Assembly: GCA_019232665.1 (NCBI GenBank)
Contig: JAFANN010000262.1
Coordinates: 1 to 34,447 of the forward strand
Direction of reading: 5' to 3'
DNA length: 34,447 nucleotides
From: Caulobacteraceae bacterium
GTDB taxonomy: Bacteria > Pseudomonadota > Alphaproteobacteria > Caulobacterales > Caulobacteraceae
In this document: piece after piece, positions 16,785 through 34,447 of the stretch
Layout: the number at the start of each line of letters is the position of its first letter
Numbering within the stretch: position 1 is the first letter of the stretch
Translations under genes and position numbers: made by a program
The notes under the pieces: model-generated
Told to the model about the DNA's origin: nothing
Database searches by the model: none
The model's input: only the letters and a program-made list of their open reading frames with translations

Positions 16785-18173
16785 ATGTCAGAGGTCAATC
16801 TCCCGTCGGATCACGAGCCTTCGATCCCGATCCGCCTGTTCAGCCAGGCGGACTGGAGACTCAACGCCCAGGAGCTCAGTCCGCCCGCGCGGGCGGCGGC
16901 GACGCAGGTCAAGTTCGCCGGAAAATCGGGCGACCTCGCGGTTGTCAGAGGCGACGACGGCGAGGCCCAGGAAGTGCTCTTCGGCCTTGGCGAGGGACCG
17001 GCGGCGCCGGCCTTCCGTGGTCTGGCGGCCAAACTGCCGCCAGGGGACTACCGGCTCGACGGCGAGGCGCGCGGCGACGGCGCCGACCTCGCCCTGGCCT
17101 GGGCCCAGGGGGCCTACCGCTTCGACCGGTACAAGCGCGATCGGGGCGATCCGCCGCCGCGCCTGGTGACTCCGAGCGGCGCGGATGCGAACCGCGTGCG
17201 CGTCCTCGCCCACGCCTGCGCCCTCGCCCGAGACATGGTCAACACGCCGGCCAACGACATGGGGCCGCTGCAGATCGAGACGATCGCCCGCGAGATCGCC
17301 CACCAGCACGGGGCGCAGATCGAGGTGGTGACCGGGGACGCCCTGCTCGAGGCCGGCTATCCGGCGGTCCACGCGGTCGGACGGGCCGCCGTGGCCCATC
17401 GCGCGCCGCGGATGATCGAGATCACCTGGGGTGAGGCGGGCGCGCCTGTCGTGGCCGTGGTCGGCAAGGGCGTGGTGTTCGACACCGGCGGCCTCGATCT
17501 GAAGCCTTCGGCCGGCATGCGGCTGATGAAGAAGGACATGGGCGGCGCCGCCCACGCCCTCGCCCTGGGTCGGATGATCATGGGCCTGCGCCTGCCGGTG
17601 CGCCTGGTCGTGCTGGTCCCGGTGGTGGAGAACGCCGTCTCCGGCGACGCCATGCGGCCCGGGGACGTGCTGGCCTCGCGGCGCGGCCTCTCGATCGAGG
17701 TGGGCAACACCGACGCGGAGGGCCGTCTGATCCTTGCCGACGCACTTGCGCGGGCGGCGGAGCTGACGCCCAGCCTCACCATCGACATGGCGACCCTGAC
17801 CGGGGCGGCGCGGGTGGCGCTGGGGCCGCACGTCATCCCCTTCTACACCGATGACGACGATCTCGCCGGCGAGATCGCGGAAGGCTCGCTCGCCGCAAAC
17901 GACCCGCTCTGGCGCATGCCGCTGTGGGACGGCTACGCCGCCTCCCTGGATAGCGACGTCGCTGACCTCAAGAACGACCCGGACGGCTGGGCGCAGGCCG
18001 GGTCGGTCACTGCGGCGCTCTTCCTCAAGCGCTTTGCGCCGGTCGGGCCGTGGGTCCACCTGGACATCTTCGCCTGGAATCCGCGCTCTCGACCCGGCGC
18101 GCCGGTAGGGGCGGAAGCCCAGTCCATCCTCGCCCTCCTCCACATGCTCGAGCGGCGGTTCGCGAAGGCGTGA
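16785..18173 (+). CDS. Leucyl aminopeptidase family (M17) metallopeptidase
   Basis: VVGKGVVFDTGGLDLKPSAGMRLMKKDMGGAAHALAL; NTDAEGRLILADAL; DMATLTGAARVALG. Confidence 0.94.
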   Translation: MSEVNLPSDHEPSIPIRLFSQADWRLNAQELSPPARAAATQVKFAGKSGDLAVVRGDDGEAQEVLFGLGEGPAAPAFRGLAAKLPPGDYRLDGEARGDGADLALAWAQGAYRFDRYKRDRGDPPPRLVTPSGADANRVRVLAHACALARDMVNTPANDMGPLQIETIAREIAHQHGAQIEVVTGDALLEAGYPAVHAVGRAAVAHRAPRMIEITWGEAGAPVVAVVGKGVVFDTGGLDLKPSAGMRLMKKDMGGAAHALALGRMIMGLRLPVRLVVLVPVVENAVSGDAMRPGDVLASRRGLSIEVGNTDAEGRLILADALARAAELTPSLTIDMATLTGAARVALGPHVIPFYTDDDDLAGEIAEGSLAANDPLWRMPLWDGYAASLDSDVADLKNDPDGWAQAGSVTAALFLKRFAPVGPWVHLDIFAWNPRSRPGAPVGAEAQSILALLHMLERRFAKA

Positions 18174-25461: not shown

Positions 25462-25833
25462 TCAGGTCAGCATGTGCTCGCCGATGGCGCGGGCGACGGC
25501 GTCGCTGTCGAGGGGCTTTTCGAAGCGTGCGACTTTCGAGAATCGTTCGGGAATAGACTGCGACTCATAGCCGGTCGTGAAGCAGAATGGGACATTGCGA
25601 GCCTCGAGGGCTTCTGCGACCGGAAAGACCTTCTCCCGGCCAAGGTTGACGTCCAATAAAGCGCCGTCCATTCGAGCGCCCGTTTCTATCAGACGCAATG
25701 CGTCTGACACAGTACGCACCGGCCCAAGTACTATGGCGCCCGCTTCCTGCAATGAGTGCGACAGGTCATCTGCGAGGAGAAATTCATCCTCGACCACCAA
25801 TACGCATCGCCCGCGGAGATGATGTTCACCCAT
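25462..25833 (-). CDS. Single-domain response regulator (FAT GUY-like receiver)
   Basis: VLVVEDEFLLADDLSHSLQEAGAIVLGPVRTVSDAL...DGALLDVNLG...VPFCFTTGYES...RFEKPLDSDAV; no output domain. Confidence 0.88.
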   Translation of the reverse strand: MGEHHLRGRCVLVVEDEFLLADDLSHSLQEAGAIVLGPVRTVSDALRLIETGARMDGALLDVNLGREKVFPVAEALEARNVPFCFTTGYESQSIPERFSKVARFEKPLDSDAVARAIGEHMLT

Positions 25834-25975
25834 CGGCTGGCGACCCTCCGAAGACCCTCCCCGCCTTGGTATTCGCGAAGGCAAGAGGATACAACGTGCC
25901 TGAAGAGACGGAAGCTCTCATTTGTACGGAAAAACAAGCTTAACAGATCTTATTGCATAGCCGAACGTCCGCCAG

Positions 25976-26000
25976 GGAACCGGCCATGTTGGGCGCGGTT
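25976..26000 (+). promoter_or_regulatory. Candidate ECF (EcfG-like) promoter: GGAAC-N17-GTT
   Basis: GGAAC 25976-25980, 17 nt, GTT 25998-26000; 28 nt before the cheB-like ATG at 26029. Confidence 0.4.
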
Positions 26001-26028
26001 CGTTCAAGGGGCCAGCGCGACGAGGGTT

Positions 26029-27039
26029 ATGAGCAAGCGGGATATCGTGGCGATCGGAGGTTCTGCAGGGAGCGCGGCAGCTCTGCGAAAGATCGTCGCC
26101 GCCCTTCCCCTGGATTTTTCCGGATCGGTTTTCGTGACCGTTCACATTCCCACTACCCAGCCGAGCCATCTGGCCGAGGTTCTGGGCAAATCCGGCGAGC
26201 TGCCGGTCGCGATCGCCCTGGACGGCCAGCCGATCGAACGGGGCCAGATCTATGTCGCCCCCATGGACCGGCACATGCTGCTGATGAACGGGGCGATCCG
26301 GCTGGGCGCCGGGCCGCGGGAGAATCTGGTCCGCCCGTCCATCGATCCGATGTTCCGGTCCGCAGCCATGTCGTTCGGGTCCCGCGTGATCGGGGTGGTC
26401 CTCAGCGGACTGCTCAACGACGGCGCATCGGGTCTTTTCGCGATCAAGAGCGCGGGCGGCGTCGCCATCGTCCAGCATCCGCTCGACGCGCAGGAGAGCA
26501 GCATGCCCCGGGCGGCCCTCGAGGCTGTCGACGTCGACCACGCGGCGCGGGCGGACGAACTGGGCGAGCTCATCGCCTCGCTCGCCCGAACCGAAGCCGG
26601 ACCGTCGAGGGCTGTCCCCGACAGCGTGGCGTTCGAGGTCAAGGTGGCTTGCGGAGGACGCGTGGGTTCGGACACGCTGCACCGGTTCGCCAGCCCGGCC
26701 ACACTGACCTGCCCCGAGTGCGGCGGCGTCCTGTCGGAGGTGCAAGGCGAGAAGCCGCTCCGCTTCCGCTGCCAGATCGGCCACGCTTACACGGCCGAGG
26801 AGCTTGCGGACCACCACGAGCTGCTCGACGAGGCGATCGGGGTCGCCATGAGAATCATGGAAGAGCGGGTCACTCTGGTACGGCGAATGGCGCAGGACGC
26901 GCGCGAAACCGGCCGCAAGGCGGTGGCTGAGCTCTATGACACGCGTGCGGCCGAGTACCGGCGCTATGCGGACACGCTCCGTCAGGCCGCCCAAATCTCG
27001 ATGGCCGCCAGTAGAGAAGCGAACGAAGACGCTGCTTAG
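26029..27039 (+). CDS. Stand-alone CheB-type protein-glutamate methylesterase with C-terminal Cys/His motif region
   Basis: DIVAIGGSAGSAAAL (Ser), FVTVHIPTT (His), GVVLSGLLNDGASGLFAIK (Asp), IVQHPLDAQESSMPRAAL; no receiver domain; tail CPECGG...FRCQIGHAYTAEEL. Confidence 0.92.
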   Translation: MSKRDIVAIGGSAGSAAALRKIVAALPLDFSGSVFVTVHIPTTQPSHLAEVLGKSGELPVAIALDGQPIERGQIYVAPMDRHMLLMNGAIRLGAGPRENLVRPSIDPMFRSAAMSFGSRVIGVVLSGLLNDGASGLFAIKSAGGVAIVQHPLDAQESSMPRAALEAVDVDHAARADELGELIASLARTEAGPSRAVPDSVAFEVKVACGGRVGSDTLHRFASPATLTCPECGGVLSEVQGEKPLRFRCQIGHAYTAEELADHHELLDEAIGVAMRIMEERVTLVRRMAQDARETGRKAVAELYDTRAAEYRRYADTLRQAAQISMAASREANEDAA

Positions 27040-27105
27040 TCGTCATTGCGCTTCTTCCCGCATCCCTAAGGGGATAGGTTAATTGACGGGAGATGGGGAG
27101 GCAGA

Positions 27106-30100
27106 TTGGCCAGACGGACCTCGAAGACGGATAAGCCCCAGCCGGTCGCCCAGCCCCCACCTGCCGTAGCGGCATGCGTCGCTGTAGCGGTGGCGCCTGG
27201 ATCGACTGAGACCCTGATACAGTTCCTGGGCGGGCTGCCCGCCGACACCGGCGCCGCCTTCGTGTTCATCGCGCCCGGCGTTCCGAACGCGACCCTCGAT
27301 CCGTTCGCGGATCTCAGCGACTTCACCTCGATGCCGATCGCGCCCGCGACCTCTGAAACGGTCCTCGCGGCCGACCATGGCTATGTCTGTCCTCAAGGTC
27401 AGGTTGTCGTGATCGAGAAGGGGCGCCTGCGCCTCGAGCCGGCAAAGCCCGGCGACGGACGGATCGACAGCCTCGTCGTCACTTTGGCCGAGGCCTATGA
27501 AGAGCGCTCCGCCGTAGTCCTGCTGGGCCCCCTCGGCAGCGATGGTGTCACGGGCGTGACCGCGACCAAGCGATTGGGGGGGCTGTCGGTCGCCGAAGGC
27601 ACCGAAGAATCCCTCGAGCCAGCCGCCACGGCCGTCACCGCCGCGGGAATTGCTGACATGCGCCTCCCCGCCAGCAGGATAGGCGTCGAGATCCTCGAGT
27701 ACCTCTCCAACATCTCGCGCTCGGAGGCTCATGAGGAAAAGCGCGAAACGGAAGCGGACGCCGGCCCGTCTCTCGCGCGCATCGCCGCCATTCTGCGCAA
27801 TGTGACCGGCAACGACTTCAACGGCTACAAACACGCCACCTTCCTGCGACGCGTCCAGCGCCGGATGCAGGTGGTCCACGCCAGCGACCTGGATTCCTAC
27901 ATCGACCTGCTGCGCCGCGACCCGCAGGAGGTCCAGCATCTGTTCCAGGACCTGCTGATCAGCGTCACGCACTTCTTCCGCGATCCCGGCGAATTCGAAA
28001 TCCTTGAACAGGAAGTCATCCCGAAAATCTTCGAGAGCAAGGGCCGCGACGACCGGATTCGCGTGTGGGTGCTTGGCTGCGCTACCGGAGAGGAGGCCTA
28101 CTCGCTCGCCATCCTTCTCCGCGAGCAGATGTCGAAGATCGACACGCCGCCCCACGTCCAGATCTTCGCGACCGACATCGACGCGCGCGCCCTCGCGATC
28201 GCGCGTAGCGGGCGTTATCCCGAGCAGATCGCGCGCCACGTCTCTCCCGAGCGCCTCGCCCGCTGGTTCGTGAAGGAAGGCGTGACCTATGTGGTGTCCA
28301 AGGAACTGCGGGAGATGTGCATCTTCTCGCCGCATAACATCGTCAAGGACGCACCGTTCTCACGCATAGACTTGCTGTCCTGCCGGAATCTTCTGATCTA
28401 TTTGAATGGCTCGCTACAAGATCGGGTGATCCCGATCTTCCACTTCTCGCTCAATCCTGGTGGCTACCTCTTCCTGGGCCCGGCCGAGAACGTCACGCGC
28501 CAGCAGAAGCTCTTCGCCCAGGTCGACCGCAAGAGCCGGCTCTTCCGTCGCCTCGACACCCCCACGCGTGTCCTGCCGGACTTCCCGCTCACGCCGCGTG
28601 CGACGCACCAGGAGGGAGAGGGGCCGGGGCCCGTCCCCCGTTCGCCTCGGCCGCTCTCCAGCGGTCTCAGCCGCCGGGTCGATCACGTGGCCGAGCGCTA
28701 CGCGCCGGCCTTCGTCGTTGTCGACAGCAGTTACGACGTGCTGCACTTCTCCGGTCGCACGGGTCGGTTCCTCGAACCTGCGGCGGGGGCCGCGAGCCTG
28801 AACCTGCTCAACCTCGTCCACCGCGACCTGCGGATGGACCTCCGATCGGCGATGCACAAGTCGATCAGCCAGCACGCCCGGGCCAGCGTGCGGCATGTGC
28901 GCATGGGCGGCGGTGCGGAGGCGCGCGCGGTGAGCATCGTCGTCGAGCCCGTCTCCCGGCCCGACGAATCGGTGGCCCTGATGGTCATCTTCCAGGACGC
29001 CGGTCCGCTTCCCGAGGGGATCAACGCCGGCGAATCTTCGCGGACCGACGACCAGGTGCAGCGCCTGGAGGGGGAGCTGCGCACCGCCAAGGAGCGGCTG
29101 CAGGCGACGATCGAAGAGCTGGAGAGCACCAACGAGGAGCTGAAGTCCTCGAACGAGGAATACCAGTCGATCAACGAGGAGCTTCAGTCCGCCAACGAGG
29201 AGCTCGAGACCTCGAAGGAGGAGCTGCAGGCGGTCAACGAGGAGCTGCATACGGTCAACGGCGAGCTCGCACACCGGGTGGCCGAACTGGCGAGCTCGAA
29301 CTCGGACCTCAAGAACCTTCTCGAAAGCACGCGCATCCCGACGATCTTCCTCGACAACGACCTGCGCCTGCGGACCTTCACGCCGGTCACCACCGAAATC
29401 TTCCACATCATCGACAGCGACGTCGGCCGGCCGATCGCGCATATCACCACCCGCCTCGCCTATCCGCAGCTTCAGGACGACGCGCGCCAGGTGCTGTCCA
29501 CCCTCGGCCGCGTCGAGCGGCAGGTCGACATCGAGGAGGACGACCGCAAGTTCCTCGTTCGCGTGCTCCCCTACCGGAGCGTCGACAACTTCATTGGCGG
29601 CGTGGTCCTGACCTTCCTCGAGATTACCGGCACGGCGCGCGCGGAAGCGGCGCTGCAGACCAGCGAGCGGCGCTTTGGCGAGGCCCAGCAGCTGGCCGGC
29701 GTCGGCGTCTGGGAGTGGAACCCCGAGAGCGACGAGACCTGGTGGTCGCCGACCGTCTACGACCTGTGGGGCCTGCCAAGGTCCGAGAAGCCGCCGGCTC
29801 ACGCCGATCGCCCGGTGCACGAGGAGGACCGCGAGCAGTACCTCAAGGCGGTCGAGGAGGCCCGTGCAGGCGGGGTTTTCGACGCCGAGTGGCGCGTCGT
29901 CCTGCCGGACGGCTCGTTCCGCTGGCTGGCCGAGACGGGACGCGAGGATTCCTCCCGCGGCCGGAGGATGCTGGGGATCACCCAGGACATCACCCACCGC
30001 AAGGTGACAGAGACCCGCCTGACCATGCTTCTGGGCGAGCTGCAGCACCGGGTGCGGAATATCCTGGGCGTGGTGCGATCGATCGTGAACCGGACGGTGC

Positions 30101-30666
30101 GGAGCTCCACCAGCCTCAGCGACCTCGCCGAGCGGCTGGACGGACGCCTGCACACCCTCGCGCGGACCCAGGCGGTGTTCACCCGCACCGGCGTGACGTC
30201 GATGGAGATCGGCGATCTCGTGCGCGACGAGCTCTCGGCGGTCGGCGCTCCGGACGACCAGCTGACCATCGATGGGCCCAGCGTGCGCGTGCGGCGCGAG
30301 GTGGCGCAGAGCTTCGCTCTCGCCGTTCACGAGCTCACCACCAACGCGGTCAAGTACGGCGCCTTCGCCGAGTCCGGCGGTCAGCTATCGGTCACTTGGC
30401 GCTTGCTGGAGGACGGTCACGATCCGCGCCTGCAGCTGGAATGGAGGGAGAGCGGCGTTCGCGCCCTCGACATCCGGCCCGCCCGCGCCGGCTTCGGTCG
30501 CGAACTGATCGAGCGCAGCCTGCCTTACGAACTGGGCGCCGAAACCCGCCTCGAGTTCGCCCCCGGCGGCGTCGTGGCCGTGATCGAACTGCCGCTCAAC
30601 GAGAACATCGCCGAGGTCGAAGGCGACGGGGGGGGGGGATGGGGGATAGCCCCTCTTCCTCACTAG
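27106..30666 (+). CDS. Hybrid sensor: degenerate CheB domain, CheR methyltransferase, coiled coil, PAS domains, HWE histidine kinase
   Basis: CheR: VWVLGCATGEEAYSLAILL, SCRNLLIYL; coiled coil EELESTNEELKSSNEEYQSINEELQSANEELETSKEELQAVNEEL; HWE: GELQHRVRNILGVVRSI, VHELTTNAVKYGAF, LEWRESG. TTG start. Confidence 0.92.
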   Translation: MARRTSKTDKPQPVAQPPPAVAACVAVAVAPGSTETLIQFLGGLPADTGAAFVFIAPGVPNATLDPFADLSDFTSMPIAPATSETVLAADHGYVCPQGQVVVIEKGRLRLEPAKPGDGRIDSLVVTLAEAYEERSAVVLLGPLGSDGVTGVTATKRLGGLSVAEGTEESLEPAATAVTAAGIADMRLPASRIGVEILEYLSNISRSEAHEEKRETEADAGPSLARIAAILRNVTGNDFNGYKHATFLRRVQRRMQVVHASDLDSYIDLLRRDPQEVQHLFQDLLISVTHFFRDPGEFEILEQEVIPKIFESKGRDDRIRVWVLGCATGEEAYSLAILLREQMSKIDTPPHVQIFATDIDARALAIARSGRYPEQIARHVSPERLARWFVKEGVTYVVSKELREMCIFSPHNIVKDAPFSRIDLLSCRNLLIYLNGSLQDRVIPIFHFSLNPGGYLFLGPAENVTRQQKLFAQVDRKSRLFRRLDTPTRVLPDFPLTPRATHQEGEGPGPVPRSPRPLSSGLSRRVDHVAERYAPAFVVVDSSYDVLHFSGRTGRFLEPAAGAASLNLLNLVHRDLRMDLRSAMHKSISQHARASVRHVRMGGGAEARAVSIVVEPVSRPDESVALMVIFQDAGPLPEGINAGESSRTDDQVQRLEGELRTAKERLQATIEELESTNEELKSSNEEYQSINEELQSANEELETSKEELQAVNEELHTVNGELAHRVAELASSNSDLKNLLESTRIPTIFLDNDLRLRTFTPVTTEIFHIIDSDVGRPIAHITTRLAYPQLQDDARQVLSTLGRVERQVDIEEDDRKFLVRVLPYRSVDNFIGGVVLTFLEITGTARAEAALQTSERRFGEAQQLAGVGVWEWNPESDETWWSPTVYDLWGLPRSEKPPAHADRPVHEEDREQYLKAVEEARAGGVFDAEWRVVLPDGSFRWLAETGREDSSRGRRMLGITQDITHRKVTETRLTMLLGELQHRVRNILGVVRSIVNRTVRSSTSLSDLAERLDGRLHTLARTQAVFTRTGVTSMEIGDLVRDELSAVGAPDDQLTIDGPSVRVRREVAQSFALAVHELTTNAVKYGAFAESGGQLSVTWRLLEDGHDPRLQLEWRESGVRALDIRPARAGFGRELIERSLPYELGAETRLEFAPGGVVAVIELPLNENIAEVEGDGGGGWGIAPLPH

Positions 30667-30768
30667 CGCGCCCGTCCCCTCGCCAACCCCAGGCGTAGCG
30701 ACCGCAGCGGAGTGGGGACATCAGTTCCCGCCAGCGGCGCAACACTTAGTCAAACGACCTCGGATCGC

Positions 30769-30791
30769 CCTTCTCCCCTTGCGGGAGAAGG
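30769..30791. repeat. Hairpin CCTTCTCCC-CTTGC-GGGAGAAGG between convergent genes
   Basis: 9-bp perfect inverted repeat, 5-nt loop. Confidence 0.7.
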
Positions 30792-30826
30792 AAAAACAAC
30801 AACTTAATAGGTCACCTGCCAACGCC

Positions 30827-31210
30827 TTACGCCCGGACGGAGCGGAGGAGCCGGCCGAGTTGGCGGGCGGCTTCGCCGGGGGTGACCGGCTTCTCGATGC
30901 GCTGGATGTCCTTGTATGCCTCGGGCGTGCGGCCGGAATCGTAGCCGGTCGCGAAGAGAAAGGGGACGCTTCGGGCGCGCAGGGCCTCGGCGACGGGAAA
31001 GACCATCTCGCCGCCCAGATTGATGTCGAGGACGGCGCCGTCTATCCGCGCCTCCGCCTCGACCAGCCGCATCGCCTTATGAATCGTAGGAACCGGGCCG
31101 ACCACGATTGCTCCGGCCTCGATGAGCTCGCGACGGATATCCTCGGCGAGGGCGTATTCGTCCTCGACCACCAGGATCCGACAGTCGACCAGCCCGGAGT
31201 CGACCCTCAC
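30827..31210 (-). CDS. Single-domain response regulator (FAT GUY-type receiver)
   Basis: ILVVEDEYALAEDIRRELIEAGAIVVGPVPTIHKAM...DGAVLDINLG...VPFLFATGYDSGRT...RIEKPVTPGEAA. Confidence 0.9.
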   Translation of the reverse strand: MRVDSGLVDCRILVVEDEYALAEDIRRELIEAGAIVVGPVPTIHKAMRLVEAEARIDGAVLDINLGGEMVFPVAEALRARSVPFLFATGYDSGRTPEAYKDIQRIEKPVTPGEAARQLGRLLRSVRA

Positions 31211-31211
31211 C

Positions 31212-33149
31212 TCAGCTTCCCCTCGGCATGTGTTGCGACACCGGCAGGGTGATGACGCAGTGTACGCCGTCGCGGCCCAGTTTGTAACTCGTCTCAGCGT
31301 CCAGCTGATAGGGCAACGCCCGCTCGATCAGTTCGCGGCCGGCGCCGCCGCGCGTGTCGGCGTCCGGCGGCATGGCCACGCCGCTTTCGATCCACTCCAC
31401 GCGCAGGCGCTGGCGGCCGTCGACCAGCCCCGGCTCCAGCCGCCAGCGGACCGTCAGCCGACCTTCCGGTTGCGCCAGGGCGCCGTACTTCATCGCATTC
31501 GTCGCCAGTTCATGGATCGCCATGGCGAGGATCTGGACGGTGCTGGAACGCAGCAGCACGCCCGGCGGTCCATCGAGGGTGACCTGCCCCCCTTGGGCGC
31601 GAAGCTCGTCTCGCACGAGCTCGTCGAAGGGGACGCGATCGCTTTCCTTGAGACGTGACAGCAGGCTCTGCACCCTCGCCAGAGCGTCCATCCGGTCGGC
31701 GAACTTCTGGTTGAAATCCGGCAGGCTGCGGCTGGTGCGCGCCGTGCGCTGGGCGATCGAGCGCACGACAGCCATCAGGTTGCGGGTCCTGTGCTGCAGT
31801 TCGCCGATCATGACCGTCATCCTGTGGGCGGTCTCCTTCTCCGCGGTGACGTCCTCGCCGATGCCGCCGATCCGCGTTACCCGCCCGCGCTCGTCGACGA
31901 GCGGGAACATCGTGTCCCTCAGCCAACGGACCTGCCCGTCGCTGGCCCGCCGGACGCGGTATTCGAGGCTCACATGCTCCCCAAGAGCCACGCTCTGAAG
32001 CTCCGAGAGGGCGAGGTCGCGGTCCTCCGGCAAAATGAGCTCGAGCCAGCCCGTCAGGCCGTTTCCGGCGATGGCGTGTTCCAGCTCCAGTCCATAGACG
32101 GTGTCGAAGGCCGCGCTGAGGTATTCCCATTGCAGGCTCTGCGCGTCGCGGATCCACAGCACGTCCAGTGAGGCGTCCCCGAAGCGACGGAACCTCGCTT
32201 CGCTGTCGCGCAGGGCGGCTTCCGCCTGTTTGCGCTCGCTGATGTCCAGCGCGTACTCGACGATGGCGCCGTCGCCGAGGTCATGGCCGCTGAACAGCAT
32301 CCACCGGCGGCGGCCATCGCGCGTGAGGTACTCCTTTTCGTAAGGACCGGCGCGGCCCTCTCTCGCCAGCCGTTCGCGCTCGACTTCCGACTGCGCCATC
32401 CACTCCGGCGGCGTCAGGTCCCTCCAGCCCAGGCGACCGCTGGCCACGTCCTCCCGGGTCCAGCCGGTCATCCGAAGGAACGCGTCGTTGGCGTCGAGAA
32501 GCCGACCGTCCAGCGAGAAGAAGAGGATTCCGATGGCGTCTGTCTCGATCACTCGCCGCAGCCGCGTCTGGCTCGCGCGCAGGGCCTCCTCCCGACGGTA
32601 GCGAACAATCGCCTCGCTGGCCTGGCGCGCATAGAGGTCGGTCAGACGGTGATCGGTGTCGCTGAAGGCGCGGTGCTGGCGGAAATAGGTGGAGACCATG
32701 CCAAGCCGCTCTCCCCCGACGCCGTGCAGCGGCGTCGACTGCGCGGCGCTGAAGCCATACCCGCGAGCGGCCTCCAAGAACCTGGCGAAGGCGGGGTCCG
32801 TCGCGACGTCCTCGATCACCACACGCTCGCCTTTGGCGAGAGCCTGCCCGCAGGAAGTCCCGTGGTCGACGCCGATCTCGGCGAAATCGGATTCGAAGGC
32901 CGCGTCGAAGCCACGCTGAGCGACCAGTCTCAGCGTTCCACGCTGCCGATCGAAGATCTGGATGTTGCCAAAGTCGGCCCGGTGCAGGGCGACGATTGCA
33001 TCCAGCACCTGAACCAGGAGGTCGTGCAAGTCGGCTGTCCGGTCGAGCCGCAGGGTCAGCTCGTGAAGCCGCCGCATAGCGTCCAGCTCCGACGCCAGCT
33101 GCGCCCGGGACTCTTCCGGCTCCCATCCGCCGAGCGTCGTACGCGACAT
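31212..33149 (-). CDS. GAF-PAS-PAS HWE-family sensor histidine kinase
   Basis: GAF (HGTSCGQALAKGERVVIEDVATDPAF), two PAS/PAC units (LDANDAFLRMTGWTREDV; VSLEYRVRRASDGQVRWLRDTMFPLVD), HWE motifs GELQHRTRNLMAVVRSI, IHELATNAMKYGAL, VEWIESG. ORF may start at GTG 33182. Confidence 0.93.
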   Translation of the reverse strand: MSRTTLGGWEPEESRAQLASELDAMRRLHELTLRLDRTADLHDLLVQVLDAIVALHRADFGNIQIFDRQRGTLRLVAQRGFDAAFESDFAEIGVDHGTSCGQALAKGERVVIEDVATDPAFARFLEAARGYGFSAAQSTPLHGVGGERLGMVSTYFRQHRAFSDTDHRLTDLYARQASEAIVRYRREEALRASQTRLRRVIETDAIGILFFSLDGRLLDANDAFLRMTGWTREDVASGRLGWRDLTPPEWMAQSEVERERLAREGRAGPYEKEYLTRDGRRRWMLFSGHDLGDGAIVEYALDISERKQAEAALRDSEARFRRFGDASLDVLWIRDAQSLQWEYLSAAFDTVYGLELEHAIAGNGLTGWLELILPEDRDLALSELQSVALGEHVSLEYRVRRASDGQVRWLRDTMFPLVDERGRVTRIGGIGEDVTAEKETAHRMTVMIGELQHRTRNLMAVVRSIAQRTARTSRSLPDFNQKFADRMDALARVQSLLSRLKESDRVPFDELVRDELRAQGGQVTLDGPPGVLLRSSTVQILAMAIHELATNAMKYGALAQPEGRLTVRWRLEPGLVDGRQRLRVEWIESGVAMPPDADTRGGAGRELIERALPYQLDAETSYKLGRDGVHCVITLPVSQHMPRGS

Positions 33150-33337
33150 CTCCGACCCGTCCTGCAACCCGGCGCCTCCCACGCCGCGCGGGCCGCCGCG
33201 ATTTAGCCCGGCGACCGCCGGGTTGAACGCAAATCCACCCCTGTTCGACGCGTCCCGTCGCCCGATCGATCCCTGCTTTGGCGCCAGGCGGAGTCGATCG
33301 GTTCAACCACCGGGGCAGCGACACGAAGATCCGTTGT

Positions 33338-33769
33338 TCAGCTTGGCATCGTGTTCAGGAGGGCGAGGAGTCGGGCGACGAAGCCCTCGTTCTGGGTCAG
33401 CTCGCGAAGGTGCGTGGGGGCGAGGCGTCTGAGGGCCTCTTCACCCTGATCGGTCAGGAGCACAGCGACGCGGCGGGCGTCGCCCGGCGTGGCGGCCCGG
33501 CGGACCAGTCCGGCGGCCTGCATCCGGTTGACCAGTTCGGCCGCGGAATGCTGGCGCACCAGGAGCTGGTCGGCCAGCTCTCCGATGGAGATCGGGCGGT
33601 CTCCCGCGTGGCCCTTGATTGCAAGCAGCGCCTGGTATTGCTGAGGCGCATAGCCGGCCGCCTCGGCCTCGCGACTGCTGAAGGCGAGGAAGCGACGGAG
33701 CTGGTGGCGGAAAGCGGCGAGCGCCCGGTACTGCTCGAGGGTTACGGGCGGCGCCTGCGGTGAATCCAT
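33338..33769 (-). CDS. MarR-family transcriptional regulator
   Basis: ALLAIKGHAGDRPISIGELADQLLVRQHSAAELVNRMQAAGLVRRAATPGDARRVAVLLTDQGEEAL; winged-helix pattern. Confidence 0.92.
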   Translation of the reverse strand: MDSPQAPPVTLEQYRALAAFRHQLRRFLAFSSREAEAAGYAPQQYQALLAIKGHAGDRPISIGELADQLLVRQHSAAELVNRMQAAGLVRRAATPGDARRVAVLLTDQGEEALRRLAPTHLRELTQNEGFVARLLALLNTMPS

Positions 33770-33860: not shown

Positions 33861-34447
33861 TCATCGCCAGCCGAGCTCACGCGCCGCGGCCTCGCTCGGG
33901 CCGTCCAGGGCCGGGGCGGACGTCATCGACTGGGCGGCAGAGAGCACCGAGGCGGGAATCTCATCGCCCGCGACCTTGTAGGCGCCGGCGCGCCCGCTCC
34001 CGGCCGTGGCGGCGGCAAGCGGCACCGTCCAGTGCGCGCCCGTACGACACGCGACACCGGCGAGTCGCGCGGGGTGATCGAGGAAGGTCCGGCAATAGCG
34101 GCCATCGTCGGCGCGGATGGTGAAGCCGATCCGGATCGCCTGATTTGGGGACTGCTCCGCCGCCAGCTGGTTATTCAACGCCCGGGCGAGGCCGTCCTGC
34201 GCCACCAGCGCTCCGCCCTGGGTCGCGACGGCGGGAGCGGAACGCAGGGCAGCGCCGCCGAAGCCGATCACCAGACCCGCTGCGAGGCAAGCCGCCGCCA
34301 GGAGCCCTGCGGAGCCGGGAGCGGGCCGCGCCGTGGCCTGGCGCCGCTGACGCCGGACGGCGGCGAGGTCCACCACCTCTGGCGCCTCATACGACTTCGC
34401 GCCGGCCACCACGCTGAGCAGGCGGCCGGGGACCGGCTCGACCAGCG
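33861..34447 (-). CDS. Anti-sigma-factor-like membrane protein (N-terminus beyond window)
   Basis: Frame continues to the window edge: ...LVEPVPGRLLSVVAGAKSYEAPEVVDLAAVRRQRRQATARPAPGSAGLLAAACLAAGLVIGFGGAAL; one TM segment then DDGRYCRTF...ACRTGAHW. Confidence 0.65.
   Translation of the reverse strand, partial: LVEPVPGRLLSVVAGAKSYEAPEVVDLAAVRRQRRQATARPAPGSAGLLAAACLAAGLVIGFGGAALRSAPAVATQGGALVAQDGLARALNNQLAAEQSPNQAIRIGFTIRADDGRYCRTFLDHPARLAGVACRTGAHWTVPLAAATAGSGRAGAYKVAGDEIPASVLSAAQSMTSAPALDGPSEAAARELGWR

Follow-up and report, generated by a model that had tools for sequence, protein, structure and literature searches.

The contig JAFANN010000262.1 of a Caulobacteraceae bacterium (assembly GCA_019232665.1), 34,447 bases long and analysed here in its entirety as "the window", encodes a signalling island in which a CheR methyltransferase and an HWE kinase are joined in one protein of 1186 residues (27106-30666, forward strand) by a long, strongly conserved coil. 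Next to this fusion kinase stand a separate CheB methylesterase, two single-domain receivers (RR1 and RR4) and a second HWE kinase (HK5), and neither CheW nor methyl-accepting chemotaxis proteins (MCPs) were found anywhere in the genome. The reading that we favour, with a little over even confidence and on comparative grounds, is that the CheR domain methylates the coil of its own kinase and that the separate CheB reverses this, tuning HWE phosphotransfer to receivers of the FATGUY type. More broadly, such fusions may form a receptor-less sensor family with its own adaptation, in which a CheR in cis marks a seven-repeat coil and the mark is erased by a CheB that is either fused or encoded in the operon; we regard the chances of this wider proposition as evenly balanced.

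In the favoured reading, the PAS domains would sense stimuli and set the state of the coil, which lies between CheR and the PAS-HWE part. The CheR domain would methylate glutamates of the N-E-E-x-x-[ST] heptads, in the same chain or in the dimer partner, and the separate CheB would remove the methyl groups. Because this CheB has no receiver domain of the kind that CheA controls, it would not be switched by CheA. The level of methylation would then shift the packing of the coil and with it HWE autophosphorylation, and the phosphate would pass to the PFxF[AT]TGY single-domain receivers RR1 and RR4 and from there possibly into the PhyR-NepR-EcfG stress pathway. HK5 lacks a coil of this kind and may feed these receivers as well, as a second input. 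The initial annotation of the island had proposed that carboxyl methylation tunes the HWE kinase. The action of CheR and CheB on a target other than an MCP fits all the comparative evidence presented below, and from the same evidence we infer the methylation, its sign, the phosphotransfer partners and the stress output, as well as the tuning itself.

A conserved coil that links CheR to the kinase

The coil occupies residues 649-741 of the fusion (29050-29328) and was predicted by AlphaFold2 (AF2) as a single helix of 93 residues; it holds seven N-E-E-x-x-[ST] heptads in tandem. No other long stretch of the protein is so well conserved: the mean identity among 36 sequences is 86%, compared with 76% for CheR and 51% for HWE. 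Specifically, when Leu is placed at heptad position a, the Glu-Glu pair at f and g has mean entropies of 0.29 and 0.10 bits; values rise to 0.74 and 0.98 bits at the core positions a and d and to averages of about 1.0-1.9 bits in the other domains of the fusion. Of a coil that served dimerisation only, one would expect the opposite, a core better conserved than its Glu pairs.

The Glu pairs of the coil resemble, at the level of sequence, the methylation sites of chemoreceptors, for which the published consensus is [ASTG][ASTG]xx[EQ][EQ]xx[ASTG][ASTG], usually with the second residue of the pair methylated (PMC6829392, PMC6391922). In the window's coil the first small residue of this consensus is replaced by E, K or Q. 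When that position is omitted, the shortened motif ([ASTG]xx[EQ][EQ]xx[ASTG][ASTG]) matches the window's coil four times; across 103 fusions it occurs at a mean of 3.9 per coil, while the remainder of these proteins yields 0.02 per 90 residues and other long open reading frames (ORFs) yield 0.036, although the heptad repeat makes the matches within a coil non-independent.

Fifty of the 200 Pseudomonadota genomes examined carry the coil, and the window's genome has it once. All recovered coil ORFs have CheR in cis, except for a gene split by a transposase and a fragment of 252 residues, while the outputs attached to the coil vary and include HWE, HisKA, GGDEF and others. This combination of a constant CheR and varying outputs argues that the coil follows CheR and not the kinase. 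At locus L168 (719-6148), a CheB-CheR-coil fusion gene is interrupted between CheR and the coil by a transposase-like ORF.

These patterns bear most directly on the strongest alternative, namely that the coil is a conserved dimer-stabilising signalling helix, and that a soluble receptor, HK5 or some other target is modified in trans by CheR and CheB. These enzymes classically do work in trans, and similar short N-E-E coils are found in kinases of Bacteroidota whose ORFs contain no CheR. Against this, the exposed Glu pairs are better conserved than the coil core, the Pseudomonadota coil accompanies CheR while the output domain varies, the coil is present in a single copy in the window's genome, and eleven genomes with these proteins have no MCP (see below). 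We therefore consider action in trans unlikely, yet substantial enough to be kept in mind.

CheR and CheB in a genome without chemotaxis

The window is one entire contig of an assembly of 3.83 Mb that comprises 375 contigs and is 97.8% complete. Searches of the whole genome for CheW (PF01584) and for MCPsignal (PF00015) returned no matches, and each search was positive in seven control genomes. The lack of CheA, CheW and MCPs that had been noted for the window is thus true of the genome as a whole. A complete chemotaxis operon just outside the window, named beforehand as one of the discoveries that would refute the proposal, is ruled out by the same searches. CheB is present only as the standalone gene and within the fusion, and CheR only within the fusion and as one weak partial match (28.6 bits) on another contig.

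Among 50 other genomes that bear the fusion, CheW is present in 40 and absent from 10, and none of these 10 has an MCP. All 11 CheW-free genomes, the window's included, retain both CheR and CheB, and two of them carry one extra CheR each elsewhere. That CheR and CheB are still carried in MCP-free genomes indicates that their substrate there is not an MCP, and in such genomes the separate CheB has no other known customer. It could be argued that in most of its hosts the module serves the adaptation of a chemosensory array and that the array is merely missing from our assembly. The 375 contigs, the completeness of 97.8% and the 40 fusion genomes with CheW would be consistent with this. Nonetheless, CheW and MCP are usually multi-copy families and both gave zero matches, and the fusion or its coil also occurs, with CheW absent, in the complete genome of Stella vacuolata and in five genomes rated 100% complete, two of which are single contigs. 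A missing array is, in our opinion, quite improbable.

An alignment of the CheB domains divided the fusions into two kinds. The intact kind keeps the G-x-S-x-G motif, His and Asp, and has no separate CheB at its locus; the dead kind has lost the triad and has a separate CheB with intact Ser, His and Asp just upstream. In the window, the fused CheB domain (residues 25-195; 27178-27690) is degenerate (2.2e-17), with its catalytic Ser and His gone. All three residues are present in the standalone CheB, which most likely extends over 26029-27039 on the forward strand (Pfam CheB_methylest, 1.2e-48). In the CheR tree the dead kind forms one clade of 42 rows that includes the window (SH-aLRT 99). Our tally comprised 50 intact fusions without a separate CheB and 36 dead fusions with one, which for two of the 36 (L003 and L034) lies elsewhere in the genome; a few loci were left outside the tally because their CheB part is truncated or disrupted, or because the contig ends too close by. 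A second group of dead fused esterases, consisting of ten distant fusions, was considered and rejected, as their sequences show an intact G-x-S-x-G, His and Asp. Over several orders, nearly all descendants of the handover have kept the separate CheB, with its Ser-His-Asp triad intact in almost all loci.

The methyltransferase is similarly well preserved. The CheR_N (residues 223-273) and CheR (residues 287-475) domains of the fusion (27772-28530; CheR 7.9e-50) carry the S-adenosylmethionine (SAM) motifs GCATGEEAYS and FATDID, and the SAM motifs are near-invariant across fusions. The notion that CheR and CheB here are leftovers of a chemotaxis system that has been lost, attached to an ordinary HWE kinase with receivers, would account for the decayed fused CheB and for a genome without chemotaxis. 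These SAM motifs, the intact triad of the separate CheB and the retention of the enzymes in ten further MCP-free genomes speak against it, and we hold it to be the least probable of the three alternatives.

Several observations weigh against methylation of the coil by its own CheR, or at least call for caution. The strict ten-position chemoreceptor consensus has no match in the window's coil, and four Bacteroidota kinases have shorter N-E-E coils with no CheR in the same ORF and with none or one match to the motif. Chemotaxis is also present in most hosts, both those that bear the coil (44 of 50) and those that bear the fusion (the 40 with CheW mentioned above). With regard to the esterases, two dead fusions lack a partner and one intact fusion has a second CheB. 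Moreover, the association between triad loss and the separate CheB reflects a single supported event, which provides no phylogenetic replication and no statistical power.

Receivers and the general stress response

RR1 (25462-25833, reverse strand; ATG start, frame open from 25884) and RR4 (30827-31210, reverse strand) both possess the acidic pocket, the phosphoacceptor Asp and the Lys of receivers and have no output domain, with scores of 24.2 and 28.0 bits that fall under the Pfam Response_reg cut-off of 30.2. They had been described as FATGUY-like, and this holds in graded form. The published FATGUY motif is PFXFATG[G/Y] (PMC5964349). RR4, with PFLFATGY, is an exact match to PFxFATG[GY], and its best solved relatives are SdrG (5ieb) and Sma0114 (2lpm) at 9e-16; RR1, with PFCFTTGY, has T for A and is one position off, which places it outside the strict FATGUY definition. 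The FTTGY motif of RR1 is of the type that, in other genomes, is carried by receivers lying immediately downstream of the fusion.

The FATGUY receivers SdrG, MrrA and Sma0114 (PMC5898713, PMC5964349; PDB 5ieb, 2lpm) offer the nearest comparison, being likewise single-domain proteins with the PFxFATG[GY] motif and HWE kinase partners. The window's proteins differ from them in the FTTGY of RR1 and in that their function is read from sequence. The FATGUY receivers known to date act as promiscuous hubs (PMC5964349). In the window, it is plausible that HK5 and RR4 form a dedicated pair, as they are adjacent and one base apart. An attempt to pair RR1 and RR4 with the two kinases by means of a receiver tree was abandoned, with too few columns to resolve it.

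In Sphingomonas melonis and Caulobacter crescentus, HWE/HisKA_2 kinases feed FATGUY-like receivers (PMC5898713, PMC5964349). The core of the general stress response is present in full in the window's genome, where PhyR, NepR and EcfG lie together with two further HWE/HisKA_2-type kinases on another contig, and the PhyR/EcfG locus contains five perfect EcfG boxes (0.39 expected). It is possible that the output of the module reaches PhyR through the FATGUY-like receivers, and we infer the link to general stress on this basis. Such a link would be indirect: no perfect EcfG box (GGAAC-N15..19-CGTT) occurs in the window, and Sma0114, itself a FATGUY protein, has been reported in another pathway.

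Gene layout, distribution and known systems

The five signalling genes listed in the initial annotation were confirmed in order, strand and domain content, and the HWE assignment of both kinases was upheld. The fusion begins with its degenerate CheB and CheR domains, followed by an alpha/beta domain (residues 519-634, between CheR and the coil) that is defined by AF2 secondary structure only, has no solved relative by sequence and is probably a PAS domain. After the coil come PAS_10 (residues 735-841) and PAS_3 (residues 879-946), both called by Pfam, and the HWE dimerisation and phosphoacceptor region (residues 978-1058; 30037-30279; HWE_HK 2.4e-19). The protein thus has the arrangement that defines its family (fused CheB and CheR, then coil and PAS) and is 48-65% identical over nearly its full length to alphaproteobacterial relatives of its clade. 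HK5 (31212-33182, reverse strand) is a GAF-PAS-PAS-HWE kinase (HWE_HK 3.1e-19); its gene shares the strand of RR4 and lies upstream of it at a distance of one base. Both kinases exceed the HWE_HK cut-off and carry the His and W-x-E motifs, as ELQHRVRN and LEWRESG in the fusion and ELQHRTRN and VEWIESG in HK5. The kinase region of HK5 is nearest to the kinase modules of Rhizobium/Sphingomonas-type fusions (63% to one of them; moderate grouping support of 86).

The neighbourhoods of 77 related loci were compared with that of the window. In most alphaproteobacterial loci, CheB is followed by the fusion and then by a receiver on the same strand, which often overlaps the end of the fusion. This combination of CheB, fusion with a dead CheB domain, CheR, PAS and HWE, and a PFxF[AT]TGY-type receiver is widespread (Roseomonas, Methylobacterium, Rhizobium, Sphingomonas), while in Rhodobacterales and Rhodanobacter the fusion and receiver occur without a separate CheB. 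The receivers often read PFVFTTGY, and PFVFSSGY in Rhodanobacter. The window shows a displaced arrangement, with RR1 upstream on the opposite strand and RR4 downstream with HK5, converging on the fusion. Synteny had been anticipated for all five genes; that layout is not conserved, but its CheB-fusion-receiver core is, across alphaproteobacterial orders. In five Rhizobium loci, further FATGUY-like receivers stand in tandem upstream of the CheB-fusion module, which suggests a receiver-rich array. Two loci (L014 and L034) appear to be split into a CheB-CheR ORF and a PAS/GAF-HWE kinase ORF followed by a receiver, and these splits may be sequencing errors.

The fusion is missing from most genomes of the family. 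Any fusion turned up in 14 of 79 relatives of the window's genome, at 34-41% identity and in most cases stopping before the kinase part, and the closest relative found (65%) is a metagenome-assembled alphaproteobacterium. The window's copy of the module therefore appears, from this distribution, to be patchily inherited or laterally acquired. The GC content of the island resembles that of the remainder of the window.

Some further features of the window were recorded. The C-terminus of the standalone CheB (about 26700-27039) has a CPxCGG...CxxGH zinc-ribbon-like tail that is common to many homologues. Beside the island, 33338-33769 and 33861-34445 (reverse strand) cover a MarR-family regulator and a contig-end ORF; the latter is membrane-protein-like, has no Pfam match and is possibly an anti-sigma factor. 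ARAGORN called a tRNA-Ala(cgc) of 92 nt at 17128-17219 (reverse strand), antisense within a clear M17 aminopeptidase gene (16785-18173, forward strand), and this call is almost certainly a false positive.

Methylation of a kinase outside chemotaxis has a precedent in the RsbK-RsbM-RsbY system. In Bacillus cereus, RsbM methylates a signalling helix of the hybrid kinase RsbK and thereby controls the sigma-B stress response, with no cognate esterase according to the authors (PMC4574943). The likeness lies in a methylated kinase helix that tunes the general stress response, which for the window is predicted from sequence. RsbM is a separate protein and RsbK has another kinase domain make-up, whereas in the window CheR is in cis, an esterase gene is retained and the coil has seven tandem repeats. 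Compared with MCPs and their CheR/CheB adaptation, the coil shares Glu pairs flanked by small residues and the pairing of methyltransferase with methylesterase; the fusion differs in having no MCP signalling domain and no CheW or CheA, in departing from the strict consensus and in carrying its kinase on the same chain. Other CheB/CheR fusions (annotated cheBR; e.g., the chimeric CheB-CheR gene of Phaeobacter inhibens, PMC12363192) have the same CheB-CheR-coil-PAS order with a kinase or other output. The window's clade is set apart by a dead fused esterase replaced by a standalone CheB, and the window itself by a genome without a chemosensory system. In open-access PubMed Central, a search for functional studies of such fusions found only annotations. 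The module is ordinary in its parts and unusual in its context, and the mechanism appears to be unpublished as judged from this search, which makes its novelty provisional.

If the proposed mechanism is correct, reversible methylation, the adaptation memory of chemotaxis, would also be a self-contained part of ordinary sensor kinases, and it would give kinases, diguanylate cyclases and other outputs a short-term memory without a chemosensory array. It would also provide a concrete target, the Glu pairs of the coil, for the CheB/CheR fusions, whose coil turned up in one in four of the Pseudomonadota genomes sampled, and MCP-free genomes like that of the window would be clean test beds for it.

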